A DNA stretch of 64,000 nucleotides from Undibacterium sp. CCC3.4 (GTDB taxonomy: Bacteria; Pseudomonadota; Gammaproteobacteria; Burkholderiales; Burkholderiaceae_D): the NCBI RefSeq assembly GCF_034347425.1, contig NZ_CP133779.1, positions 3,906,001 to 3,970,000 of the forward strand. The letters are read 5' to 3'. Both the position numbers and the translations under genes were made by a program. Numbering within the stretch: position 1 is the stretch's first letter; the number at the start of each line of letters is the position of its first letter. A model generated the notes under the pieces. It worked only from the letters and a program-made list of their open reading frames with translations. It had not been told where the DNA came from and searched no databases. Below, one piece after another: positions 1,838-56,376 of the stretch.

Positions 1838-2002
1838 GAGCCTGTCGCAAAGCTGCGTGTAGTCGGCATCCTTACCCCAACCGCCCGCAACGTCGTTCCT
1901 GCGAGCTTTTGGCAGGAATCCAGCGACGTTCGCAGTTAACTGAAAATGGCAGAAATTGTGGCATTTTCAGTATAAAAAATGACGCCAGGTTCCTGCCAAA
2001 AC
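1838..2002 (+). repeat. Degenerate copy (D) of the dispersed 'ctgtcgcaaaag' repeat family
   Basis: This stretch of the 1791-2225 gap matches the order of blocks in the other copies at 28.7, 35.5, 39.2 and 55.1-55.9 kb. It has the end block gagcctgtcgcaaag, then the pairs 'ttcctgc...gcaggaa' and 'tggcag...gtggca', then 'ttttcag' and 'ccaggttcctgccaaaa'. It lacks the 24-bp tandem units seen in other copies and is the most diverged. It separates the two-component genes from the binding-protein gene. Nothing else gene-like is visible in the gap. Confidence 0.6.
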
Positions 2003-28657: not shown

Positions 28658-29078
28658 GAGGCTGTCGCAAAAGGGTTTTCAGTCGGTATCATTACTCCAA
28701 CTGGCAGACATGTCATTCGCCCGTGCTCTCGCCTCGTCATTCCTGCGTAGGCAGGAATCGAGTGGCACCTTAGTGCCTTCAGGCTGGGAGGGTCGATCAA
28801 GGGCACTTTTTTCTGTTAAATCAACACGGCCTGCTGCGCCTGAGCAGCACAGAGATAAAAGGCACCTGCGCGGCAATGACGAATTGGACGGCTGGGTGGA
28901 TGCGCAATCGACCTGACTTGTGGGTAATGCTCAGCGCGCTTTTGGCGGGAACCTGGTGGAGTTCGTGCTTAACTGAACATACCAGAAATGATGGTGTTTT
29001 CAGTGCCAAAAACGATACTGGGTAACAGCCAACAGCATGCGGGACTGACGAGGTATACGGTGTTTCAGGTATAAAAAT
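28658..29078. repeat. Dispersed repeat family, copy C (with internal extra sequence)
   Basis: The left end agaggctgtcgcaaaag (28658-28674) is identical to the terminal repeat of copy B. The order that follows mirrors copies A and B in inverted orientation: cggtatcattactcc, cgcgcttttggcgggaacc, gtgcttaactgaa, gcatgcgggactgacgaggtat, cggtgtttcaggt. Extra sequence at about 28735-28915, related to the fragment at 41.4 kb, separates the blocks. The right terminal repeat is eroded. With the hairpin before it, this fills the 28254-29120 gap; open frames inside it look like chance. Confidence 0.65.
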
Positions 29079-29120
29079 GCGGTTGCGCTGCTTCAAGCAC
29101 AATGGCAACCGAGCAGCCTG

Positions 29121-35500: not shown

Positions 35501-35856
35501 AACTTAATAGATCGTCGCAAAAGCCTGATGGACGCTTTTTTACATCTGAAACACCGCATACCTCGTCATTCCCGCATGCCGAAGCCTCGTCATTCCCGCA
35601 TGCCGCAGCCTCGTCATTCCCGCATGCCGCAGCCTCGTCATTCCCGCATGCTTTTGGCGGGAACCCAGTGTCGTTTTCAGCGCTGAAAACACGATCATCT
35701 CTGGCATTTTCAGTTAAGCACGAACGCCGCTGGGTTCCTGCCAAAAGCGCGCAGGAATGACGTGGCCACCAGTTGGGGTAATGATACCGACTCACTACCC
35801 TTTTGCGACAGCCTCTGAAGGCCGGGGTTTCAAACCCTAGTCAGATTTTTGATGAA
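35501..35856. repeat. Dispersed repeat family, copy A (three full 24-bp units plus a partial one)
   Basis: This copy fills most of the 404-base gap between the SDR and acyl-CoA dehydrogenase genes. From about 35564 it carries three tandem 24-bp units of the type cctcgtcattcccgcatgcc plus four bases (gaag or gcag), and a partial fourth. Then come paired blocks (ggcgggaaccc/gggttcctgcc, gtgtcgttttcagcgctgaa) and the end cccttttgcgacagcctct (35798-35816). It shares both outer flanks with copy B (aacttaat at the left, tcaaaccctagtcagattttt at the right), but lacks 90 bases that copy B has between two gtcgcaa repeats. Confidence 0.8.
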
Positions 35857-39076: not shown

Positions 39077-39473
39077 AACTTAATGGATCGTCGCAAGCGA
39101 CGATGGAAAAGACTCTGGAAGGGGTTTGCATCCCCTCCCATCGGGTCGCTCCTTCGTCGCTCACCGGCCAAAAGAGGCTGTCGCAAAAGCCTGATGGACG
39201 TTTTTTACACCTGAAACACCGCATACCTCGTCATTCCCGCATGCCGCAGCCTCGTCATTCCCGCATGCTTTTAGCGGGAACCCAGTGTCGTTTTCAGCGC
39301 TGAAAACACGATCATCTCTGGCATTTTCAGTTAACCACGAACGCCGCTGGGTTCCTGCCAAAAGCGCGCAGGAATGACGTGGCCACCAGTTAGGGTAATG
39401 ATACCGACTCAATACCCTTTTGCAACAGCCTCTGAAGGCCGGGGTTTCAAACCCTAGTCAGATTTTTGATGAA
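39077..39473. repeat. Dispersed repeat family, copy B with intact terminal inverted repeats
   Basis: The core element is 39173-39433 (261 bp). Its ends agaggctgtcgcaaaag and cttttgcaacagcctct are 17-bp inverted repeats with one mismatch. It has one full and one partial 24-bp cctcgtcattcccgcatgcc-type unit. The wider block shared with copy A starts at aacttaat (39077) and ends at gatgaa (39473). Together with the candidate operator and the phased direct repeats it fills the 38954-39635 gap. Copies A and B are in the same orientation and bracket the thiolase and acyl-CoA dehydrogenase genes. Confidence 0.8.
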
Positions 39474-39635: not shown

Positions 39636-41300
39636 ATGGCGACAGCACCTATTGCAACGTCAAGCGGCATGACAGCTGAAGAACGCAAAGTTATTTTTGC
39701 TTCTTCTCTGGGAACCGTTTTTGAATGGTACGACTTTTATCTGTACGGCTCGTTGGCCGCCATCATCGCCAAGCAATTTTTTGCTGGTACCGATCCGAAT
39801 ACCGGCTTCATCTTTGCCTTGCTCGCCTTCGCTGCCGGTTTCATCGTGCGACCGTTCGGCGCGCTGGTGTTCGGTCGTCTCGGCGATATGATAGGTCGCA
39901 AGTACACCTTCTTGGTCACTATCCTGATCATGGGTGCCTCAACCTTCTGCGTCGGTCTGTTACCGAACTTTGCCACCATCGGCATCGCCGCCCCAATCAT
40001 CTTGGTATCGCTGCGGATTCTCCAAGGCTTGGCCTTGGGTGGTGAGTACGGCGGCGCGGCGACTTATGTAGCCGAGCATGCACCACACGACAAACGCGGT
40101 GCTTACACGGCCTGGATACAAACCACGGCAACGCTGGGCTTGTTTCTGTCTTTGTTAGTCATCCTCGGTACCCGCCAAGCCATCGGCGAAGAAGAATTCG
40201 CTTCCTGGGGCTGGCGCGTGCCTTTCCTGGTGTCGGTATTCTTGCTCGCGGTATCGGTTTGGATTCGTTTGTCCATGCATGAATCGCCGGCTTTCGCCAA
40301 GATGAAAGCAGAAGGAAAAACCTCCAAAGCACCGTTGACCGAATCCTTCGGCCAATGGAAAAACTTGAAAATCGTTATTCTGGCTTTGGTTGGCCTGACT
40401 GCCGGTCAAGCCGTGGTTTGGTACACCGGTCAATTCTATGCTTTGTTCTTCCTGCAGCAAACCTTGAAAGTCGACGGTGCCACGGCCAATCTGTTGATCG
40501 CCGCTTCACTCGTGATCGGCACACCGTTCTTCATCATCTTCGGTACCTTGTCAGATAAAATCGGCCGCAAGCCTATCATTCTGGCCGGTTGCCTGATTGC
40601 TGCGCTGACTTACTTCCCTATCTTCAGCGGCCTGACCCATTATGCCAATCCTGCTCTTGAAGCAGCCTTGAAAAATGCGCCGGTGGTGGTAACAGCTGAT
40701 CCGGCTGACTGCCAATTCCAGTTCAACCCTACCGGCACGAAGAAATTCAATTCTTCTTGCGACATCGTGAAAGCGAAATTGGCTGCCGCTTCGGTCAATT
40801 ACTCCAATGAAGTCGCGGCACCGGGTAGCATCGCCACCGTTAAAGTCGGCGACAAGCTGATCACTTCTTACAGTTCGGCAACCTTGCCGAAAGAAGAAGC
40901 CGCAGCTAAAGACAAAGCCTTCTCGAAAGAGCTGGGCGACGCCATCAAAGCAGCCGGCTATCCACCGAAAGCCGACAGCGCGCAAATCAACAAACCGATG
41001 GTCTTGCTGTTATTGGTCATCTTGGTGATTTATGTGACCATGGTGTACGGCCCGATCGCGGCGATGTTGGTAGAAATGTTCCCTACCCGCATCCGCTACA
41101 CCTCGATGTCGTTGCCCTACCATATCGGTAACGGTTGGTTCGGCGGTTTGTTGCCGACTACTGCGTTTGCACTGGTGGCATTTAAAGGCGATATCTATTA
41201 CGGTCTGTGGTATCCAATCGTGATCGCCTTGGCCACCTTCGTGATCGGTGCCTTGTTCATCCGTGAAACCAAGGATAACGATATTTACGCCGACGACTGA
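39636..41300 (+). CDS. MFS transporter, metabolite:H+ symporter type
   Basis: 554 residues. The metabolite:H+ symporter signature is clear: FEWYDFYLYGSLAAIIAKQFF near the N-terminus, GRLGDMIGRKYTF in loop 2-3 and RILQGLALGGEYGGAATYVAEHAP. GTLSDKIGRKP marks the second half. An unusual hydrophilic loop of about 110 residues (~335-450) separates two helices in the C-terminal half and holds two cysteines (DPADCQF, NSSCDIV). It probably imports an organic acid or osmolyte with protons; the substrate is not known. A good AGGAGA site precedes the ATG, and a strong terminator follows. Confidence 0.93.
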   Translation: MATAPIATSSGMTAEERKVIFASSLGTVFEWYDFYLYGSLAAIIAKQFFAGTDPNTGFIFALLAFAAGFIVRPFGALVFGRLGDMIGRKYTFLVTILIMGASTFCVGLLPNFATIGIAAPIILVSLRILQGLALGGEYGGAATYVAEHAPHDKRGAYTAWIQTTATLGLFLSLLVILGTRQAIGEEEFASWGWRVPFLVSVFLLAVSVWIRLSMHESPAFAKMKAEGKTSKAPLTESFGQWKNLKIVILALVGLTAGQAVVWYTGQFYALFFLQQTLKVDGATANLLIAASLVIGTPFFIIFGTLSDKIGRKPIILAGCLIAALTYFPIFSGLTHYANPALEAALKNAPVVVTADPADCQFQFNPTGTKKFNSSCDIVKAKLAAASVNYSNEVAAPGSIATVKVGDKLITSYSSATLPKEEAAAKDKAFSKELGDAIKAAGYPPKADSAQINKPMVLLLLVILVIYVTMVYGPIAAMLVEMFPTRIRYTSMSLPYHIGNGWFGGLLPTTAFALVAFKGDIYYGLWYPIVIALATFVIGALFIRETKDNDIYADD

Positions 41301-41317
41301 TACGGCTGTGCCGGTTT

Positions 41318-41357
41318 AAAAAAAAGCCGTCCGAACTTGGTTCGGGCGGTTTTTTTT
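41318..41357. terminator. Bidirectional rho-independent terminator
   Basis: Ten-base stem ccgtccgaac/gttcgggcgg with a short loop, flanked by an A run on the left and a T run on the right. It ends the MFS transcript and may also stop the efflux operon from the other side. Confidence 0.88.
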
Positions 41358-41362
41358 CGTTC

Positions 41363-41475
41363 CTTAGGTCGATTCCGCGTCCACCGAGCCGCGCAATTCG
41401 TCATTGCCGCCCGATTCGTCATTGCCGCGCAGGCGGCAATCGAGTGGCGCGCACGCGCCTTTTATGTCAACTGCA
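41363..41475. repeat. Fragment E, related to the inner part of repeat copy C
   Basis: It contains aattcgtcattgccg twice and the inverted pair cattgccgcgcaggcggcaat, followed by cgagtggc and ccttttatgtca. The complement of this order occurs at about 28845-28915 inside copy C. It lies just after the MFS terminator and ends near the stop of the outer membrane protein gene. Confidence 0.5.
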
Positions 41476-41485
41476 ATGAGCACTA

Positions 41486-42871
41486 TTACCAACGCCCTCC
41501 AAGCGCGGCAATCAAGGCCACACTGTTCGTATATTGACGGTTCAGCACAGTCCACAGATTGGCTTCGGCGCTGATGCGCGTCGTTTGTGCCGCCAATACA
41601 TTGAGGTAGGCCACGGTACCGGCCGCATACTGGTTGCGCGTGATGGTTTCGGCTCGCTGTGCCGCCACCAGCGCCAGCGTTTGCCGTTGTGCTTGCTGTT
41701 CGAGCAGGCTTTGTGCAACCAAAGTATCTTCCACATTCTGGAAGGCGGCCAGCACCGCCAAGCGGTACGCGGCCACGCTGGCGTCATATACGGCCACGGC
41801 TTGCGCCGTTTGTGCTTTGCGTAAGCCGGCGTCAAATACGGTGGCCGCCAATTGCGGGCCGATCGCCCAAATCCGGTTCGGTGCCGAGAGCAAATCGCTT
41901 AAGCCGGTGCCCTTGTAGCCACCACTGGCAGTCAAGCTCAAGCTGGGAAAGAACGCCGCTTCGGCCAGCCCGATTTGGGCATTCGCTTGCGCCATATTGC
42001 GTTCGGCGACGGCGATATCAGGCCGCCGTTCGAGCAAAGCCGAAGGCAGCAGCGCCGGCAATTGCGGCAAATGGGGTACGGTCACAGCCGCCGGCAAGCT
42101 GAAGTCAGCCGGGGCGACGCCGATAGCGGCGGCGACGGCATGTTCCAATTGTGCCAGTTGTAACTGCTTGTCTAATGTCGCTGCGCGGGCGCTTTGATAC
42201 TGGCTGTCGGCCAAGTTCAAGCTGGCTTCAGAAACCGTACCGGCCCGATATTGGTTACGCGTGAGCGTGACGGTTTCACTCAAGGCCGCTTCACTGCTAC
42301 GCAGTTGTTCGAGTTGCTTGTCGCTCACTACCAACTGCAGATAGGCCGAGACCAACTGGGCCTGCGCACTTAATTTAATCGCTGCCAATTGCGCGGCACT
42401 GCTGGCTTGCTTCGCTTCGCCAGCTTCAATCGCGCGCCGCACGCTGCCCCACATATCGAGCTCCCAACTGGCACTGAGATTGAGGTTAGATTGCCGCGTT
42501 ACCGGCGCACCGGCGGCGCTGACGGTGCGGCTGCTGCCGGCGCTGGCCGTCAGCGATGGGAACAAGCTGGCCTCGGCTTGCGCCAATAATTGTTGGGTTT
42601 GACGATATTGTGCTTCGGCTTGCGCAATGCTCGGGCTCGCTTGTGCCTGAGTCAGCATCAAGCCATTGAGGCGAGCATCTTGATACACTTCCCACCAGGC
42701 ACCACGCGGCAAAATATCGAGCGGCTCGGCCGATTTCCAACGCCCATCTTCTTTGAAGGCAGCCGCCAGCGGCACGGCCGGTTTATGATAATCGGGCCCG
42801 ATCGCACAAGCCGATAAACTCAAAGCCAGGACAGTCACGGCCAAGTTGGGGCGAAACAGGAATTTTTTCAT
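41486..42871 (-). CDS. Outer membrane efflux lipoprotein, NodT/OprM family
   Basis: 461 residues. A lipoprotein signal peptide ends in the lipobox LSAC near residue 22, before AIGPDYHKP, the family opening. Two repeated OEP domains follow, with the hallmark [33 protein letters not shown]. As a trimer it forms the outer membrane exit duct for the RND pump encoded upstream. Its start overlaps the pump gene's stop by four bases, completing a four-gene tripartite efflux operon. Confidence 0.94.
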
Positions 42872-45800
42872 AGCGAATTACTTTGCGGTTGGGCCGGCAG
42901 TGGCGTGCGCTGGAACAGCGTGCCGCACCATAAACGGAATCGATCTAAATACACGTACACGACCGGGGTCGTATATAAGGTCAGCAATTGGCTCAGGATC
43001 AGCCCGCCGACGATGGAAATACCGAGTGGCGTGCGCATTTCCGAACCATCGCCATGACCTAGCGCCAGCGGCAAGGCACCGAACAAGGCGGCCAGTGTAG
43101 TCATCAAGATAGGCCGGAAGCGCAGCAGACAAGCTTGCAAAATCGCCTCGCTCGGGCTCAGATGTTGTTCGCGTTCGGCCGTCAATGCCACGTCTATCAT
43201 CATGATGGCGTTTTTCTTGACTATCCCTATCAGCAACAAGACACCGATCAAGGCGATGATATTGAATTCGGCATCGACCGCCATCAAGGCCAACAGGGCA
43301 CCGACTCCGGCCGATGGCAAGGTCGACAGAATAGTCAGAGGATGCACCAGACTCTCATACAAAATACCGAGCACCAGATACACCGCCACCAGCGCGGCTA
43401 AAATCAACAACGGTTGGTTGCTGAGCGAATCTTGAAAGCTCTTGGCACTGCCTTGAAAACTACCGCGCACCGAACTCGGCAAACCGATTTCGGCCAAGGC
43501 ACTGTCAATCGCAATCGTCGCGGCCGAGAGCGAGACACCAAGCGGCAAATTGAAAGAAATCGTGGTGGCAGCAAACTGGCTTTGATGATTGACACCGAGC
43601 GAGGTATTGCTCGCTTCCCAGCGCGCGAAGGCCGCTACCGGTATCGGTTTTCCGGCTGGAGTTTGCAAGTAAATACTGGCGAGTCCCTGCGGGCTTTGCC
43701 AAAATTGCGGTGCCACTTCGAGTACCACATGGTACTGATTAAGCGCATTGTAAATAGTCGATACCTGGCGCTGACCGAAAGCATCATTGAGTACCGAGTC
43801 GACCTGATTTTGCGTCAACCCTAGCCGCGCCATGGCATCGCGATCAAACACCAGCGAGGTTTGCAAGCCCTTGGTTTCCTGATCACTGTTGACATCGGTC
43901 AGCATGCTGAGCTTACTCATCGCTTGCTGTACCTTGGGTGCCCAAGCCCGCAATTCTTCGAGGTCATCGCCTTGCAAGGTGTACTGGTATTGAGCATTGC
44001 TGGCCCGACCGCCGATCCGAATATCTTGCGCCGCTTGTAAAAACAGGGTCGCGCCGGGTTCATTGGACAAGGTTTTGCGTAAGCGGCCGATGATTTTTTC
44101 GGCATTTTCTTTGCGCACATTCAGAGGTTTCAGCGTTACAAACATATTGGCCGTATTGCGCTGACCGCCGCCGGTAAAGCCGACCACTTTATCGACCGCC
44201 GGATCGGCTGCGACGACATTGATGAAGCGCTGTAATTTTTCCTGCATGGCTTGAAACGAAATGCTTTGATCAGCCTTGATCATGCCCATCATGCGACCGG
44301 TATCTTGCTGAGGGAAAAAACCCTTGGGAACGATGATATACAAATACACATTCAGGATCACGGTGGCCAGCAGTAAAACCATCATCAATGGGCCGTGCGC
44401 TAAAGCCCAATGCAAAGAGCGACGATACCCCTCAAGCAAGCGCGCAAACACGCGCTCACTGAATTGAAACAGCCGACCCGGCGGCGCTTCGGCATGCATC
44501 GGCTTGAGCCAGCGCGCGCACAGCATCGGTGTGGTAGTCAGCGATACCACTAAGGACACCAAGATGGCAACCGATAAGGTAACGGCAAATTCGCGGAACA
44601 AGCGGCCGATGATGCCACCCATGAGCAGGATAGGAATGAACACGGCGATCAAGGAAATCGACATCGACAACACGGTGAAACCGACTTCGCGTGCACCGCG
44701 CAAGGCGGCATCAACCGGCCGCATACCGTTTTCGATATGGCGCATGATGTTTTCCAGCACCACGATGGTATCGTCGACTACAAAGCCGGTGGCAATCGTG
44801 AGCGCCATCAAACTCAGATTATTGAGCGAAAAACCGCATAAATACATCACTGCAAAGGTGGCTACCAAGGAGACCGGCACGGTAATCGCCGGTATCGCGG
44901 TGGCGCGACCATTGCGCAAAAAGATGAATACCACCAGAATCACCAAGGCAATCGAGATCACCAGCGAGCGCTCAACTTCGGTGAGCGAGGCACGGATAGT
45001 TGGGGTGCGATCCATTACCACTTCCATCTTGATGGCGGCCGGAATCGAGGCTTGCAAATTCGGTAGCAAGGCTTTCACCCGATCTACCGTTTCGATGATA
45101 TTCGCACCAGGCTGACGAAACAGGATCAGCATCACCGCCGGCTGATTGCCAACCATGCCGGCATTGCGTACATCGACCACCGAATCTTTTACTTCGGCAA
45201 TATCGGCAATCCTGACCGCACTGCCGTTCTTGTAACTGACAATGAGCGGTAAATAATCTTGCGCCAATTTGGCTTGGTCATTGGCTTGCACTTGCCATTG
45301 ACGTTGGCCATCTTCGATGAAGCCCTTGGGCCGATTGGCATTAGTGCTAGTAATCGCAGCGCGTACGGTTTCGAGGCCGATGCCATAATTATTCAGTTGC
45401 ATGGGATTAACTTCTATCCGCACCGCCGGCTGCGAACCGCCGCCGACGACAACATTGCCGATACCATTTACCTGAGCCAGTTTTTGCCCGAGTATGGTGT
45501 CGGCGGCATCGTACATTTGTCCACGCGTGAGCGAATCGGAAGACAGCGCAATGATCATGATCGGCGCATCGGCCGGATTGACTTTGCGATAGGTCGGGCT
45601 CGATGGCATGCCGCTCGGTAAGATCGCACGCGCCGCATTGATGGCCGCTTGCACATCGCGCGCGGCACCGTTGATATCGCGGTCCAGATCGAATTGCAAG
45701 GTCACATTGCTGGAACCGAGCGCACTTGAGGAAGTGATTTCCGATACCCCGGCGATACGCCCGAGCGCCCGTTCCAGCGGCGTGGCGACGGTGGCGGCCA

Positions 45801-45975
45801 TGGTTTCCGGGCTGGCACCCGGCAATTTGGCACTCACCGAAATAGTCGGAAAATCGACTTGCGGCAGCGGTGAGACCGGCAGCAAACGGAAGGCCAAGAT
45901 GCCGGCCAGCAGTATCGCCAGCGTCAACAAGGTGGTGGCGATAGGACGGCGGATAAACGGTGCGGAAGAAAACAT
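42868..45975 (-). CDS. mdtC: RND efflux pump subunit, MdtC-like
   Basis: 1035 residues, a full HAE1-type RND transporter. The opening [30 protein letters not shown] is typical. The TM4 proton-relay aspartates are in [14 protein letters not shown], and the second half has [15 protein letters not shown]. Compared with the neighbour it is a paralogue, and the pair resembles MdtB/MdtC, which form a heterotrimer that exports bile salts, novobiocin and related compounds. The assignment to C rather than B is by order, downstream of the B-like gene (2-base gap). Confidence 0.93.
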
Positions 45976-45977
45976 GC

Positions 45978-48900
45978 TTAGCCTTCCTGCTTGGCCAGAT
46001 CAACCGCATCGCTGCCGCTGCCAAAGCGCTTGGCCAAGCGCCGTGCCAAGCGATCGAAGGCTAAGTAAATCACCGGGGTGGTAAACAAGGTCAACACCTG
46101 ACTGACCAGCAAACCACCGACCATGGTAATCCCCAGCGGTGAGCGCAGTTCCGAACCCATGCCGCCGCCTAACATCAACGGCAAGGCACCGAGCAAGGCC
46201 GCCATGGTGGTCATCAAGATCGGTCGAAAGCGCAGCAGGCAAGCCTGATAAATCGCATCGGCCGGGGCCATGCCATGATCGCGTTCGGCTTCGAGGGCGA
46301 AATCGATCATCATGATGGCGTTTTTCTTGACGATGCCGATCAAGAGGATGATGCCGATGATGGCAATCACACTCAAATCGCTGCCGCTGACCAGCAGGGC
46401 CAGCAAGGCACCGATGCCGGCCGATGGCAGGGTCGATAAGATGGTAATCGGGTGAATATAACTTTCATACAGCACGCCGAGCACGATGTACATGGTTACG
46501 ATGGCAGCTAAAATCAGCCACAAGGTATTGCTGAGCGAAGCTTGAAACGCCATCGCCGCTCCTTGAAAGCGGGTTTCTATACTGGCCGGCAAACCCAACT
46601 GCGCTTCAGTTTCATGTACCGCATCGACCGCCGTGCCGAGCGAAGCACCTTTGGCCAGATTAAAGGAAATCGTCGCCGTCGGGAATTGTCCGAGATGGTT
46701 GATGGTCAATGCCGCCGGCCGCTGACTGACGCTGGCCACGGTATCAAGCGCCACCGGGCCGCCGGCCAAGGTGGCGACGTAAATCCCTTTGAGCGACAGC
46801 AGTCCATTCTGCGCTTCCGGTGCCGATTCCAGCACCACCCGATATTGATTGGTCTGGGTGTAGATCGTCGAAATCAAACGCTGACCGTAGGCATCATAGA
46901 GGGCATTGTCGATCGCCGCCGTAGTCACGCCTAAGCGTGAGGCCGTATCGCGGTTGATTTCTACATAGGCTTGCAAGCCCTTGTCTTGCAAATCGCTGGT
47001 GACATCCGCCAGTGCCTCGATTTGCTGCAAGCGTTCGACTAATTTCGGCGTCCACTCCGACAATTCCTCGGGGCTGCTGGCTTGCAAAGTGAATTGATAC
47101 TGGGTGCGGCTGACGCGCGCATCGATGCTCAAGTCTTGCACCGGCTGCAAATACAGGGACAAGCCCGGCACATCGGTGACACTCTGCTGCAAGCGCGCCA
47201 GCACGGTACGGATATCGCCGCGTTCTTCCTTGGGTTTCAAGTTAATCAGCAAACGCCCGTTATTGAGTGAGGTATTAGTACCGTCGACACCGATGAAAGA
47301 CGACAAACTTTCGACTGCCGGATCGCGCAATAAGGCCTTCGCCAGCGTTTCCTGTTGCGCCGCCATGGCGGGGAAAGAAATCGACTGCGACGCTGCGCTG
47401 ATGCCTTGAATCGCACCGGTGTCTTGCAAGGGAAAGAAACCTTTCGGTACGAATAAATACAGCACCACCGTCAAGACCAGCGTCCCGAGTGCCACCAGCA
47501 GTGTCACACCCTGATGTCGCAAAACCCAACGCAACTGCGTGCCGTAAAAGGCGATGATGCGATCAAAAAATGCGCCGCTGACATGATAAAAACGACTTTG
47601 TTTCTGTTCCGGCACGTGTTTCAACAAGCGCGCGCACATCATCGGCGTGAGGGTCAGCGAAATGAAGGCGGAAATTAAAATCGACACCGCCAGGGTGACG
47701 GCGAATTCGCGGAACAAGCGCCCGACTACATCGCCCATGAACAGCAGCGGAATCAACACGGCGATGAGCGAAAAAGTTAAAGAAATGATGGTAAAACCGA
47801 TTTGCTTCGAGCCTTTCAAGGCCGCTTCCATCGGGCTGTCGCCAGCCTCGATGTAGCGCGAAATATTTTCTATCATCACAATCGCATCATCGACCACGAA
47901 GCCGGTGGCAATCGTCAAGGCCATCAGGGTCAGATTATTGATCGAGAAGCCGGACAAATACATGATGCCGAAAGTACCCACCAAGGACAACGGAACCGCC
48001 ACGGCTGGAATGATGGTGGCGGCCAGATTGCGCAAGAAAATAAAGATCACCATCACCACCAACGCTACCGACAGCATCAATTCAAATTCCACATCCTCCA
48101 CCGAGGCGCGAATCGTCAGCGTGCGATCGGTCAGGACCTTGACATCGACCGCCGCAGGCAAGCTGGTTTTCAATTGCGGCAGCAAGGCTTTGATTTTATC
48201 GGTGACTTTAATGACATTGGCACCGGGTTGGCGCTGCACATTTAAAATCACGGCCGGGGTGCTGCCAGCCCAAGCAGCCAGGCGCAGGTTTTCCGCGCCA
48301 TCGACCACCTTGGCAACATCGCGTACCCGTACCGGTGCACCGTTTTGATAGGCGATCACGACATCGCGGTATTCTTCAGCCGATTTCAATTGATCATTGC
48401 CATCGATGGTCGAGGCTTGCAAGGGGCCGTCAAAACTACCCTTGGCTTGATTAACATTGGCATTGCTGATGCCGGTACGAATATCGGCCAAAGTTAGACC
48501 GCGTGCTGCCAGCGCCTGGGTATTGCTTTGTATGCGCACGGCGGGACGTTGTCCGCCGCTGATGCTGACCAAACCGACGCCCGGTACTTGCGAAATTTTC
48601 TGCGCCAAACGGGTATCGACCAAGTCTTCTACTTTGGTCAGTGGCAGCGTATCGGAACTGATGGCAATCGTCATGATCGGCGTATCGGCCGGATTGACTT
48701 TATTGTAGATGGGCGGATTCGGCAAATCGCTGGGCAGCAGATTGACTGCACCGTTGATCGCGGCTTGCACTTCCTGTTCGGCCACATCAAGCGTGAGTTC
48801 GAGGCCAAACTGCAGCGTGATCACCGAAGCGCCGCCGGAACTGGACGAAGACATTTGCGACAAGCCCGGCATTTGACCGAACTGACGCTCGAGTGGTGCC

Positions 48901-49091
48901 GTCACCGATGAAGTCATCACATCCGGGCTGGCCCCCGGATACAGAGTGACGACTTGTATCGTCGGATAATCGACTTCGGGTAAGGCCGACACCGGCAACA
49001 AGCGCCAAGCCAGCAAACCGACCAGCAAAATGGCGAGCATGAGCAAACTGGTCGCGACAGGCCGCAGAATAAACGGACGGGAGGGGTTCAT
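45978..49091 (-). CDS. mdtB: RND efflux pump subunit, MdtB-like
   Basis: 1037 residues with the HAE1 architecture: N-terminal [36 protein letters not shown], two large periplasmic loops, the relay aspartates in [14 protein letters not shown], and [15 protein letters not shown] in the second half. It lies between the adaptor and the second pump subunit, as mdtB does in mdtABC operons. It uses the proton gradient to export drugs or other amphiphiles. Spacing to the adaptor is 15 bases. Confidence 0.93.
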
Positions 49092-49106
49092 GCGCAGTCC
49101 TTGCGT

Positions 49107-50330
49107 TTACTGTGGAGCGGAAGCTGAGGTGGAAGCCGCAGCGCGGCGAGCAGCACCAGCGGCAGGCTTAGCCGAACGCTCAATCAGCTTGATCTTGGCA
49201 CCATCCCGCAATTTATCCAAACCATCGATGACGACCTTCTGCCCTGCTTCCAAACCTTCTTCGACGATGGTGTTGTCACCGCTCACCGCGCCAAGCTTGA
49301 GCTTACGTATCGTCACCGTTTCATCGGCATTAACCAAGTAGACGTAATTACCGACTTTACCAAGCTGCAGCGCCGCCGTTGCCACCGTCAAAACATCTTT
49401 ACGCACACCTAACTGCAAATGGATATTGACGAATTGATTGGGAAATAAAGTTTGATTCGCATTGGCGAATTTGGCTTTGATATTCACCGTGCCGGTAGTG
49501 GCATTGAGTTGATTATCGATCGCCAGCAGCACACCATCACTGATCTTGTTGCGATTATCACGATCCCAAGCTTCTACCTTCAAGGGTGTTTTACCGACCG
49601 CGGCGGCTTGCAAAACTTGTGTCAGATTATTTTCCGGCACGGCAAACACCACGTTGATAGGATCGGTCTGGGTAATCACCAGCAAGCCGTTGGTATCACT
49701 GGCATGCACGATATTCCCGAGATCAACCTGACGTAAACCGATGCGACCGGCCAGCGGTGCGCTGATACGGCTGTAACTCAACTGTAAGCGCGCATTATCG
49801 AGCGTACCTTGGTCTATCTTTACCGTTCCCTGGTACTGACGTTCCAAGGCTTCTTGCGTATCAAGCTGTTGCTGGGCGATGGAATTCTGACTCAATAACA
49901 AGCGATAACGTTGCAAATCGATTTGGGCATTTTTCAGTAAAGCTTGATCGCGCAATAACTGGCCTTCGGCTTGCAGCACCAAGGCTTGATATGGGCGCGG
50001 GTCTAATTCGGCCAGCAATTGGCCTTGCTTAACCATTTGCCCTTCGCTGAAATAAATTTTTTCCAGTTGACCATCGACCCGGCTGCGTAAGGTCACCGTC
50101 GCCGTCGCCGCCACGGTGCCCAAGGCCGTCAACTGCAATGGGGCATCCTGACGCTGCACCACACTCACGCCTACCGATTGCGCACCGCCTTTACGGCTAG
50201 GGCCAGCCTCGTTGGCTGCGGCACTCGGCTTGTGCGTAATCCACCAAATGCCGGAACCGGCGGCGGCCAGCAAGACCGCGAGCACGGCATAGCGCAAATA
50301 CGGAGTAGAAGTTTTTTTCAAATCAGGCAT
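49107..50330 (-). CDS. mdtA: RND efflux periplasmic adaptor, MdtA-like
   Basis: 407 residues. An N-terminal membrane segment (YAVLAVLLAAAGSGIWWI) is followed by the barrel-sandwich/lipoyl region (TVTLRSRVDGQLEKIYFSEGQMVKQGQLLAELDPRPY), an alpha-hairpin, and the second half LSYSRISAPLAGRIGLRQVDLGNIV. It links the pump to the outer membrane channel. The C-terminus is Ala/Ser-rich. It is the first gene of the efflux operon, and its promoter probably lies in the 264-base gap before 50595. No regulator gene is adjacent. Confidence 0.94.
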   Translation of the reverse strand: MPDLKKTSTPYLRYAVLAVLLAAAGSGIWWITHKPSAAANEAGPSRKGGAQSVGVSVVQRQDAPLQLTALGTVAATATVTLRSRVDGQLEKIYFSEGQMVKQGQLLAELDPRPYQALVLQAEGQLLRDQALLKNAQIDLQRYRLLLSQNSIAQQQLDTQEALERQYQGTVKIDQGTLDNARLQLSYSRISAPLAGRIGLRQVDLGNIVHASDTNGLLVITQTDPINVVFAVPENNLTQVLQAAAVGKTPLKVEAWDRDNRNKISDGVLLAIDNQLNATTGTVNIKAKFANANQTLFPNQFVNIHLQLGVRKDVLTVATAALQLGKVGNYVYLVNADETVTIRKLKLGAVSGDNTIVEEGLEAGQKVVIDGLDKLRDGAKIKLIERSAKPAAGAARRAAASTSASAPQ

Positions 50331-50594
50331 GATGATTTATTTTTCAGAAAAGATGCGAACAGGGTGCGGCGCGAGCGTGCGGATACACGGCAAACAAAGC
50401 GCGTGTGGTGCGATGGGGATGGTAGAGCAGCGTGGAGAAGATGTGGTCAATATTCATTACAGAGCATGATAATTTATCCGCGCCGCAATTAGCAAACCCT
50501 GCTTTGTATAAAGTTGTTTCCTTAAGCCACAGGCGTGCTACATGCGCAGCGCTGCGCCTGTAAGCTTGCACCACGCCGGCACGCCAACATGAGA

Positions 50595-52232
50595 TCAAGC
50601 CAGACGTTGGTACTTATTTTGCTGCGCCGGCGCAGCGCGCAATCCAAGGCTTGGCACTTGCACAAGGGCGGCAACATGATGTTGATCGAGCTTAAACACC
50701 CCCACCGTGACCACCAAGTCTTGCGCCTGCCCCTTGAGCAAACTGGCCGCCGCCGCCATTTGCTCTACCAAGGCAGCATTTTGCTGGGTATTTTGATCCA
50801 TTTGCGTCAGCGCTTGACCGATTTGACCGATGCCCAAGGCTTGTTCATGGCTGGCCGCATTGATTTCAGCTATCAAATCCGTCACTTTTTGTATCGAGTT
50901 AACCACTTCAGCGATAGTCTCACCGGCTTCATCGACCAAGTTCGTTCCTTGCTGTACCCGGTCGACACTGGTTGTAATCAAGGTCTTGATCTCTTTGGCG
51001 GCCTCGGCACTGCGTCCGGCCAAGCTGCGCACTTCCGAGGCGACGACGGCAAAGCCGCGCCCTTGTTCACCAGCCCGTGCCGCTTCAACCGCCGCATTTA
51101 AAGCCAGAATATTGGTCTGAAACGCGATGCCATCGATGACACCGATAATGTCGGCGATTTTGCGCGAGGCTTGGTTGATTTCTTTCATGGTGTCGACCAC
51201 TTGGCTGACCACCGCCCCACCCTTGTTGGCAAAGCTCTGCGCACTCATCGCCAACTGGTTCGCTTGACGTACATTATCGGCATTTTGTTTCACCGTCGAA
51301 CCCAATTCTTCCATCGAGGCCGCCGTCTGTTCCAGCGCGCTGGCTTGGTTTTCGGTGCGGGCCGATAAATCGTGGTTACCTTGTGCAATCTCGGCACTGG
51401 CGGCAGCAATACTTTCACTGCCCAAACGCACATTCCCCACCACCACGACCAAACTCTCTTGCATGGTCTTGAGTTGCGCCATCATGCTGGCGGCGTCGCC
51501 GTTTTCCAGCACGATCGCTTGCGACAGATCGCCGGCGGCAACCCGCCTGGCCAAACCGGCTGCCTCGCCCGGCTCAGCACCGAGTTCATGACCGATGTCG
51601 CGCACCAGCTTACTGCCGAAGACAGCGGCAAACAGTACACCTAAGGCAATGGCCGCAAGCGACAGCGTACGGATGAAGCCATAGTTAGCCACGGCCACGT
51701 CATATTCGCTTTTTGATACATCCAGTTGCAATTGATTTAATTTTTGCGAGGCCAGGTTCACCGCCGGTGCCAGCACACTGATCTTGCCGGTGTAAATAGC
51801 CAGTGCGGCGTCGTTTTGACCGGCCAGCATCGCATCGGCGGCTGGCAGCAAAGCTTCTTGCACATACGGCAAGCGCAATGCATCAAAGTTCTTTGCCAAC
51901 ACTTGCTCGTCAGGCGTCAGGTAAGTCGCCATATACTCAGCCCACACCTTGGAAGCTTGCACTACGTTACTGCGCAACTCAGTATTACGCTTGGCGACAT
52001 GTTCTGGCGCTGGCTGCAACAGCATATCCATCACCAAGACGCGATTGCGCTGTAGCAAATAATTAACTTCCGCCAGTTGACCCAAGCAAATTACCCGGTC
52101 TTCATACACCGTCTTCAAAGAATTATTCGACTTATTCACCCCATACAAACCGATCAGGCCAACCGCGAGCAGTAGTAAGGCCAACAGCCCGTTCAAGATA
52201 TGCAGACGGGTGGAAACTTTGAGCTGAGTCAT
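50595..52232 (-). CDS. Methyl-accepting chemotaxis protein
   Basis: 545 residues. TM1 is at ~10-30 ([17 protein letters not shown]), then a four-helix-bundle periplasmic sensor (4HB_MCP, ~35-185), TM2 at ~187-210, a HAMP segment, and the cytoplasmic signalling hairpin with the tip [31 protein letters not shown]. It signals through CheW/CheA to control swimming. The C-terminus (NKYQRLA) lacks the NWETF-type pentapeptide that tethers CheR, so methylation probably depends on other receptors. It stands alone on the minus strand. Confidence 0.95.
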
Positions 52233-52324
52233 TTGCGCCTTTTTGATTTGCTTTCAATCAATAATAGCAAGCTAAAAGACAACTGCGGCGATTTAACATT
52301 CTTTTACGGACAAATACACAACAC

Positions 52325-53865
<1,541 letters not shown>

Positions 53866-54964: not shown

Positions 54965-55135
54965 TCATTGATCGATCAGCTCGATGCCGACGCGCCATTT
55001 GGCAGACTGCCAAGCGGAGCGCGAAGGATACAGCACTTTAGCCATGGCTTCAATATACGAGAAAATCGGCTGGCGTGCTGGGGTCGGTGATATTAGTGAT
55101 AAAAAATTACTAAAATACCACGTGAGTTCGAAGCT

Positions 55136-55861
55136 GTCGCTAAAGAGTTTGCAATCGGCATCACTACCCCAAGCGGCAACCCCGTCATTCCTGCGCGCTT
55201 TTGGCAGGAACCCCGTGGCGTTCGTGCTTAACTGCAAATGCCAGAAATCATGGCATTCGCAGCGCTGAAAACGACACTGGGTTCCCGCCAAAGGCATGCG
55301 GGAATGACGAGGTTGCGGCATGCGAAAATAACGAGGCTACGGCATGCGGGAATGTCGCTAAAGGGTTTGCAATCAGCATCACTACCCCAACCGGCAAACT
55401 CGTCATTCCTGCGCGCTTTTGGCAGGAACCCCGCGGCGTTCGTGCTTAACTGCAAATGCCAGAAATCATGGCATTCGCAGCGCTGAAAACGACACTGGGT
55501 TCCCGCCAAAGGCATGCGGGAATGACGAGGCTACGGCATGCGGGAATGACGAGGCTACGGCATGCGGAAATAATGAGACTGCGACATGCGGGAATGTCGC
55601 TAAAGGGTTTGCAATCAGCATCACTATCCCAACCGGCAAACTCGTCATTCCTGCGCGCTTTTGGCAGGAACCCCGTGGCGTTCGTGCCTAACTGCGAATG
55701 CCAGAAAGCATGGCATTTGCAGCGCTGAAAACGACACTGGGTTCCCGCCAAAGGCATGCGGGAATGACGAGGTTGCGGCATGCGGGAATGACGAGGCTGC
55801 GGCATGCGGAAATAACGAGGCTGCGGCATGCGGGAATGACGAGGCTGCGGCATGTGAGAAT
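55136..55861. repeat. Nested tandem repeat array: three copies with 2, 3 and 4 internal 24-bp units
   Basis: Three consecutive copies of the dispersed repeat run in the same direction: 55136-55353 (218 bp), 55354-55595 (242 bp) and 55596-55861 (266 bp). Each opens with gtcgctaaag, passes through ttcctgcgcgcttttggcag, tgccagaaa..tggcatt and gcgctgaaaacgacactgg, and ends in 24-bp units of the type catgcgggaatgacgaggct. The copies carry 2, 3 and 4 full units plus a partial one, which accounts exactly for the 24-bp length steps. The array fills most of the 54965-55871 gap and ends 10 bases from the GIY-YIG gene. There are no spacers, so it is not CRISPR. Confidence 0.9.
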
Positions 55862-55871
55862 GTTGGTGTCG

Positions 55872-56165
55872 TTACGCTTTCAATGCGAAGTACAAATCAT
55901 TCCAATAGGGATTAGTCGTTTCGATTTTCCGAATCTTCCATGCCCGCTTCCATTTTTTGATTTGTTTTTCGCGAAGAATGGCTGACTCAATCGATTCGTG
56001 CTGCTCAAACCAGACCAGCTTATCAATATTGTGTTGCTTAGAAAACCCATCGACAAATTTATTCTTGTGCTCGTACACACGCTTCAACAAATCGCTTGTT
56101 ACACCCACATACAAGCTACCGTTTCGATGGCTGGCTAGCAGGTACACGTAAGAATATTTAGTCAT
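55872..56165 (-). CDS. Single-domain GIY-YIG endonuclease
   Basis: 97 residues, essentially one GIY-YIG domain. The motif halves are YVYLL (6-10) and LYVGVT (18-23). The catalytic arginine is R29 in LLKRVYEHK, the metal glutamate is E66 in AILREKQIKKWKR, and an asparagine follows in NPYWNDLY. It should nick or cut DNA. It is the small YhbQ/UvrC-N-like type common in beta- and gammaproteobacteria. Its upstream neighbour on the same strand is an HTH regulator whose gene overlaps it by eight bases. Its 3' end is 10 bases from a nested repeat array, suggesting the repeats may be its targets. Confidence 0.93.
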   Translation of the reverse strand: MTKYSYVYLLASHRNGSLYVGVTSDLLKRVYEHKNKFVDGFSKQHNIDKLVWFEQHESIESAILREKQIKKWKRAWKIRKIETTNPYWNDLYFALKA

Positions 56166-56376
56166 GGCTAAAATACGAAAAAAGCGCGTAGGAATGCAAA
56201 CCCAGTGCCAACAAAATTCTCGTCAATCGTGAAAATCTGATATCGGCTTCTCCAGCCTCTATTGTAATAATTGTTCGCCGAGAAACGCGAGCAGATTGAA
56301 CAAGTTGATCTTGCGTTATTTTCATCTGTTTGCGGGCATCCGCGATTTTTTGGGCTATGTTTAACGAATTGAGCAA
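56158..56376 (-). CDS. Small XRE-type helix-turn-helix protein
   Basis: 72 residues, nearly all one HTH_3 domain: IAQKIADARKQMKITQDQLVQSARVSRRTIITIEAGEADI, then RLTRILLALGL. This resembles HipB-like and other small DNA-binding regulators. The start appears to be TTG at 56376 with AGGTG about seven bases upstream; no ATG is available before the domain. It overlaps the GIY-YIG gene by eight bases, so the two are co-translated. No HipA-type toxin is adjacent, so regulation of the nuclease, or recruitment of it to DNA, is an open possibility. Confidence 0.85.
   Translation of the reverse strand: MLNSLNIAQKIADARKQMKITQDQLVQSARVSRRTIITIEAGEADIRFSRLTRILLALGLHSYALFSYFSHD

Follow-up and report, generated by a model that had tools for sequence, protein, structure and literature searches.

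The 97-aa single-domain GIY-YIG nuclease encoded beside a tandem repeat array in Undibacterium sp. CCC3.4 is, on balance, probably the dedicated enzyme of a CGTC-tagged repeat, and is predicted to nick the single-stranded hairpin of this repeat and to promote its copying. A wider proposal, put forward tentatively and at slightly less than even strength, is that CGTC-tagged repeats owe their mobilisation to single-domain GIY-YIG nucleases, which would be the enzymes so far missing for them. They would represent a REPtron built on a second, unrelated fold, with each nuclease co-evolving with its own hairpin variant, nicking it in single-stranded DNA and multiplying inverted pairs across bacterial phyla. 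The CGTC repeats are tied to a widespread single-domain GIY-YIG nuclease by matched flanks, matched variants and an effect on copy number, and the open question of their mobilisation becomes a direct biochemical one, namely whether each nuclease cuts its own hairpin and not another's. If the proposal is true, two unrelated nuclease folds have reached the same REP-tending arrangement.

A nuclease gene beside an array of hairpin pairs

The window is the whole stretch of 64,000 nucleotides analysed, corresponding to bases 3906001-3970000 of a one-contig 4.59-Mb genome. An initial annotation had described three tandem copies of a repeat ending about 10 bases from the gene of the 97-aa nuclease, with the same repeat at four or more other places in the window. 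The array was confirmed and four further places were found, as listed here.

1863..2000, + strand: diverged dispersed copy, 77-78% identity (sequence comparison)
28658..29081, + strand: dispersed element with the GAGGCTGTCGCAAAAG end at its left and a core at 28934-29053, the core split by hairpin sequence including GTCATTGCC
35564..35803, - strand: dispersed copy, without a counterpart at the corresponding position of the relatives G002 and G009
39226..39420, - strand: dispersed copy, likewise lacking a counterpart in G002 and G009 at the corresponding position
55141..55353, + strand: array copy 1, core hairpin pair at 55183-55309 (sequence comparison)
55359..55600, + strand: array copy 2, core hairpin pair at 55401-55527 (sequence comparison, folding)
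55601..55841, + strand: array copy 3, core hairpin pair at 55643-55769 (sequence comparison)
55753..55862, + strand: 24-bp sub-repeats GGCATGCGGGAATGACGAGGCTGC, 4.6 copies, with more runs at 55293-55348 and 55511-55596
55872..56165, - strand: single-domain GIY-YIG nuclease gene, 97 aa (PF01541, E 9.3e-15)
56158..56376, - strand: small helix-turn-helix (HTH, HipB-like) ORF, 72 aa, TTG start (HTH_19, HTH_3)

The repeat unit of the array measures 218-242 bp, the outer two copies being 94-95% identical to the middle one, and its final stretch of 24-bp units stops at 55862, about 10 bases short of the nuclease stop. A 127-bp core, CGTCATTCC...GGAATGACG, is present in each copy and is built from two inverted hairpins; behind it come 24-bp units, varying in number, that look like the end of the second hairpin. 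Folded as single-stranded DNA, the core reached -37.4 kcal/mol (z -5.24), and 0 of 200 shuffles were as good. The core copies begin with CGTC and finish with GACG, as expected for an unpaired CGTC foot, and all 30 aligned cores, which were chosen by a two-ended pattern, are inverted pairs. The stem ATTCCTGC/GCAGGAAC in this genome is mismatched at its first position and carries a 9-nt loop; copies in genomes G003, G006 and G024 have a 4-nt loop form. The repeat matches are beyond chance: the pattern GTCATTCCN{10,24}GGAANCC gave 212 matches in the genome (112 forward and 100 reverse) vs 0+0 for its reversed control, and CGTCATTCCTGCGCG with up to 3 mismatches gave 23 matches vs 5.0 expected. 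A structured RNA was considered and rejected, the lone Rfam match being to a microRNA family at 34 bits vs a gathering score of 88 and taken as a long-hairpin artefact. The number of 24-bp sub-repeats differs among the copies and is a possible strain-typing marker.

The PF01541 score of the nuclease lies above the cut-off and places the protein in the GIY-YIG superfamily. Residues Y18, G20, R28, E65 and N84 are invariant across 22 aligned nuclease sequences, and we take these to be the catalytic positions. The best fold matches of its AlphaFold model (pLDDT 77.7) were UPF0213, Slx1 and UvrC GIY-YIG domains, none at E <= 0.001, and 3810 relatives were found at E <= 1e-3. Comparison with the homologue in genome G024 gave dN 0.25 and dS 1.70, dS being saturated for most other pairs, and indicates that the window nuclease is under purifying selection relative to that copy. 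A phage origin was rejected, as the nuclease had no match in 50,697 phage records, and a defence system was likewise set aside, PADLOC matching the nuclease weakly and in part (E 0.003) and giving generic HTH hits for the neighbouring ORF. In a plasmid collection, 31 of 72,556 records matched the nuclease, all at less than 60% identity.

Hairpins around homologous nuclease genes

In order to examine the surroundings of related nucleases, the loci of the best 80 among 582 confirmed relatives, which include several contigs from one assembly, were taken together with flanks of up to 10 kb. A motif-free count showed that, among the 8-mers enriched more than 2.5-fold, GTCATTCC was the one near the gene in most loci. 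It occurred in 55 of the 80, with 136 occurrences within 700 bp vs 9.6 expected from the distal flanks. The density of GTCATTCC/GGAATGAC fell from 5.08/kb in the first 100 bp around the 80 genes to 2.45/kb in the next 100 bp and 0.41/kb at 200-400 bp; further out it was 0.04-0.18/kb, with 0.15/kb at 400-700 bp and 0.04-0.14/kb beyond 2 kb. The initial annotation had anticipated a repeat density above background beside homologous nucleases, and had mentioned 'cgtcattcc' repeats close to small GIY-YIG genes of other proteobacteria; both were borne out, and the association of nuclease and repeat is general across the homologous loci.

A [CT]GTC-footed hairpin lies within 300 bp at 72 of the 80 loci; among 606 control ORFs located on the same contigs, 82 have one. 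An inverted bracket, with a forward hairpin upstream and a reverse hairpin downstream, was found at 45 of the 80 loci vs 4 of the 606 control ORFs. The window gene itself has repeats on one side only. Where GTCATTCC is missing in range (24 loci), a variant such as GTCATACC, GTCATCCC, GTCGTTCC or GTCATTTC is present at 17, and the other 7 have none. The two flanks share one or more identical 8-nt stems in 42 of 52 two-sided loci vs 15% when the downstream sides were shuffled. Stem-variant distance correlates weakly with protein distance (Mantel r 0.17, p 0.014), and an account of hairpin specificity from protein distance alone was dropped on the weakness of this correlation. Arrays beside the nuclease also occur elsewhere, with four hairpins in series in genome G232 and runs on both sides of the gene in G119, and the Neisseria gonorrhoeae homologue (54% identity over 93%) lies inside a dense GTCATTCC cluster.

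A second nuclease-repeat pair is present in the same genome. Two paralogous single-domain GIY-YIG nucleases are encoded near 2.7087 and 2.7119 Mb (locus L201, genome positions 2705948-2712127), and GTCATTCC is absent within 1.5 kb on either side of both. They are instead surrounded by GTCATTGCC hairpins, of which 12 of the 37 matches in the genome fall between 2705948 and 2711759, within 6 kb around the paralogues; the 42 other genus genomes hold 5 single matches, whose stems are at most one base longer than the pattern demands. The hairpin of the window nuclease can be written as CGTCATTCCTGC... and that of the paralogues as CGTCATTGCC.... As judged from these sequences, cognate specificity shows most clearly in this pairing of one nuclease type with one hairpin type inside a single genome.

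Copy number was then compared with the presence of the gene. A nuclease was counted as present upon a profile match, intact or not, with a threshold of E 1e-20 at order level, and the hairpin pattern scores the GTCATTCC variant alone, so that other variants are missed. Among 43 genomes of the genus, the 14 with a nuclease match, some of them broken or partial, have a median of 21 hairpins vs 2 in the 29 without (p 4.5e-5). Across 349 genomes of the order, the medians are 10 in the 57 with the nuclease and 0 in the 292 without. A nuclease gene itself contributes a few hairpins to the count, and for this reason the comparison was also made at thresholds of 10 and 20. At least 10 matches were found in 29 of the 57 nuclease-positive vs 27 of the 292 nuclease-negative genomes, and of 24 mixed genera, 20 had the larger counts in the positives and 4 in the negatives (permutation p 2e-4).

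The initial annotation had asked whether nuclease-free genomes lack the repeat; a minority of them are rich in it. At least 20 matches occur in 17 nuclease-negative genomes, 12 of which have no nuclease even at E 0.01 and 5 of which have weak or partial matches. A strict requirement of the nuclease for the repeats is rejected by these repeat-rich genomes; many repeat-bearing genomes without the gene, which had been named as evidence against the idea, were thus found in part, alongside the positive density and copy-number results. Within the genus, 12 of the 14 positives hold 7-27 hairpin matches, and the negatives G006, G015 and G032 hold 26, 25 and 48. Since several positives have low counts, no more than some negatives, the gene is also not sufficient alone. 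Repeat-rich, nuclease-free genomes may reflect loss of the gene after spread of the repeats, independence being another reading; for RAYTs, gene loss after REP spread is described in the available text of PMC6006769.

Relation to known repeat systems

CGTC-tagged palindromes are one of two large super-families of REPs and were described without a dedicated transposase, the available text of that work leaving open the mobilising enzyme, if any (Di Nocera, De Gregorio and Rocco 2013, PMC3733652). Members have a CGTC or TGTC foot, an 8-9 bp stem starting with paired AT and a loop of 4-5 nt, and are mostly organised as inverted HH dimers (PMC3733652). From their sequence, the repeats studied here fit this super-family: they share with its members, including Neisseria dRS3, the CGTC foot, the ATTCC... 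stem, the CCA tail and the inverted 'HH' dimers, although the copies of this genome differ in their 9-nt loop and in an A.C mismatch at the stem base. In Halothiobacillus neapolitanus, CGTC dimers are described within longer palindromes (PMC3733652), which resemble the nested copies found here.

The comparison with REP and RAYT that had been drawn at the outset is apt. In REPtrons, a small nuclease gene, RAYT (TnpA-REP), is flanked by its own REP family, several types coexist per genome each with its own REP, distribution is patchy and REPs outlast the gene, as far as described in the available text of PMC6006769 and PMC8266576. Bracketing by cognate repeats is seen in the counts given above, with the window locus flanked on one side, and a separate repeat for each enzyme type in GTCATTCC at the window gene and GTCATTGCC at the two paralogues. 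The enzyme of REPtrons is an HUH tyrosine transposase and the REP foot is GTAG, whereas the enzyme here is a GIY-YIG nuclease and the foot is CGTC. Because the gene encodes a GIY-YIG and not an HUH protein, the system is REPtron-like but no REPtron. It is likely that in this REPtron-like arrangement the GIY-YIG nuclease nicks its cognate hairpin, and we infer that it spreads the repeats. A word search of the accessible text of a 2025 REP survey (PMC12306157) returned neither GIY nor nuclease.

According to the proposed mechanism, the nuclease would recognise the foot and stem of the hairpin in single-stranded DNA, on the lagging strand or in incoming DNA, and would cut near the CGTC foot. Repair or replication restart after the cut could then duplicate the inverted hairpin pair locally, giving tandem arrays, and rarely elsewhere. 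In this genome, the pair also came to lie inside an element bounded by 16-bp inverted ends, and most of the sites where it now stands may have been reached with that element.

A study said to have appeared in Nature Communications in 2025 reportedly concerns the GIY-YIG family Ssn, whose Neisseria enzyme cleaves single-stranded DNA at repeats named NTS and affects transformation. This enzyme is reported to have a single GIY-YIG domain and hundreds of cognate repeats, with various cognate specificities outside Neisseria, and the emphasis of the study is said to be on natural transformation and tools for single-stranded DNA. The N. gonorrhoeae homologue is presumably the published Ssn, and we assume that the Ssn family already covers the enzyme class of the window. 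The location of this homologue in a dense cluster of the same repeat agrees with that work as reported. Both accounts have a single-domain GIY-YIG enzyme with cognate repeats; the present one argues in addition that the enzyme helps to spread the repeats and that these belong with the CGTC REPs. If the Ssn work covers cleavage, the CGTC REP link, the bracket geometry and the question of spread would still be new.

Dispersed copies and alternative explanations

The dispersed copies are nested, the hairpin pair lying within an element GAGGCTGTCGCAAAAG...CTTTTGCGACAGCCTC that is often itself inside outer arms. The 16-mer GAGGCTGTCGCAAAAG, with up to 2 mismatches, has 129+129 matches in the genome vs 1+2 for a control, and 244 matches with up to 1 mismatch vs 0-7 in each of the 42 other genus genomes. 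Among the GAGGCTGTCGCAAAAG end matches listed, 11 of 12 places picked contain GTCATTCC. Genomes G002 and G009 hold just 1 and 2 matches to the hairpin pattern in total; since two window copies are missing there and these genomes are near repeat-free, the burst looks recent and lineage-specific. Sequence identity is 97.4% within the array, 93.4% among 27 dispersed copies and 89.6% between the two sets. The array therefore forms a separate, tighter group, and its role as a recent source of the dispersed copies is disfavoured. An exact target site or target duplication was not obtained by empty-site comparison, as the flanking intergenic DNA is too diverged, and a third compared site was ambiguous. 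At 28658-29081 and at loci L236, L239, L240 and L241, hairpin sequence containing GTCATTGCC breaks the left part of the GTCATTCC core, and one repeat family seems to have inserted into another at a similar place.

The burst in this genome could have been driven by the nuclease or by a transposase acting on the 16-bp ends. Because the dispersed copies lie inside an element with such ends, another transposase may have amplified them; the element would then be a MITE, moved in trans by a conventional enzyme, the hairpin pair would be carried along passively, and the nuclease would have had no part in the burst. We regard this as a real possibility, somewhat short of even, and it is compatible with the preferred explanation in other genomes. 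The resemblance to MITEs lies in the terminal inverted repeats, whose abundance is peculiar to this genome, and in most of the copies read the core lies between these ends, with TTCA or TGAA parting neighbouring copies. However, TTCA or TGAA stands on both sides, as matching 4-bp duplications, in few copies only, and no autonomous parent of the 16-bp ends is known, nor did one turn up incidentally. Moreover, G024 has 120 hairpin matches and zero 16-bp ends, and five of its copies that were read are hairpin pairs without them, which argues that the pairs multiply without the 16-bp-ended element elsewhere.

In another reading, the nuclease and the repeat are a cognate pair that may control DNA uptake or genome exchange, with the nuclease cutting incoming single-stranded DNA at the repeats and the spread of the repeats having other causes. 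The Neisseria homologue amid GTCATTCC repeats, the purifying selection and the fixed sites of the genes in relatives are in line with it, and the reported Ssn work on Neisseria and NTS sites points the same way. Alone, uptake control leaves unaccounted for the link between copy number and gene presence across genera, the separate hairpin variant around each nuclease and the local arrays, and we consider it rather unlikely. Regarding the fixed sites, 11 of 19 nuclease loci in the genus (11 genomes) lie in the purH-ruvC spacer (L119-L125, L128-L130, L132) and 3 in the sucC-sucD spacer, which also holds the gene in Cupriavidus (sucC-sucD loci L117, L118, L126, L038). The copies inspected in these two housekeeping spacers are mostly hairpin-bracketed, and an internal stop is present in three nuclease copies (L117, L130, L132). 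The sucC-sucD spacer holds diverged nucleases with different hairpin variants. This recurrence in Undibacterium and Cupriavidus, together with the occurrence of repeats without the gene, might suggest a homing-like nuclease gene that inserts into existing hairpin repeats, the association then reflecting target preference for repeats of other origin. That reading is improbable, since the two flanks share a stem variant, which differs between paralogues of one genome, and 45 of the 57 nuclease-positive genomes of the order have a single match. With the same two spacers recurring in the genus and mostly single matches, the gene does not scatter among available repeats; it seems mostly to stay put, not moving as a unit with the repeats, as described for REPtrons. 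A toxin-antitoxin-like or guided pair formed by the HTH protein and the nuclease draws on the 8-base overlap between the end of the HTH ORF and the nuclease start, from which co-translation is suggested, and on the top NCBIfam match of the HTH ORF, the HipB-like Y4mF antitoxin family (couple_hipB), which is below cut-off. Unlike in HipBA-type systems, there is no HipA beside the ORF, and the pairing is not conserved. A phmmer search of ORFs of at least 40 aa within 700 bp of the nuclease, covering the 80 loci and 19 genus loci (6 of the 80 repeat genus loci), gave the HTH at the window's own locus only and no homologue in the 98 further records, which include the 6 duplicates. A protein homologue search requiring shared exact words returned the HTH protein alone. 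The earlier idea that the HTH protein guides the nuclease was therefore abandoned, and a paired function is very improbable.

For the preferred explanation, in which the nuclease acts as the dedicated enzyme of its hairpin, the HTH ORF is thus probably an accidental or relic neighbour outside the mechanism. A hipBA-like pair, with hipA and hipB named by eye, lies between the two paralogues near 2.709-2.711 Mb; it is a point in favour of the toxin-antitoxin reading and may bear on the HipB-like HTH ORF preceding the window nuclease. The nuclease, the HTH ORF and GTCATTCC are all absent upstream of queE (up to 1.5 kb) in 29 other genus genomes. The alignment with the compared stretches of G002 and G009 ends at window position 55000, just upstream of queE and beside the repeat array, and most of window positions 41300-52400 is missing from the matching place in both genomes.
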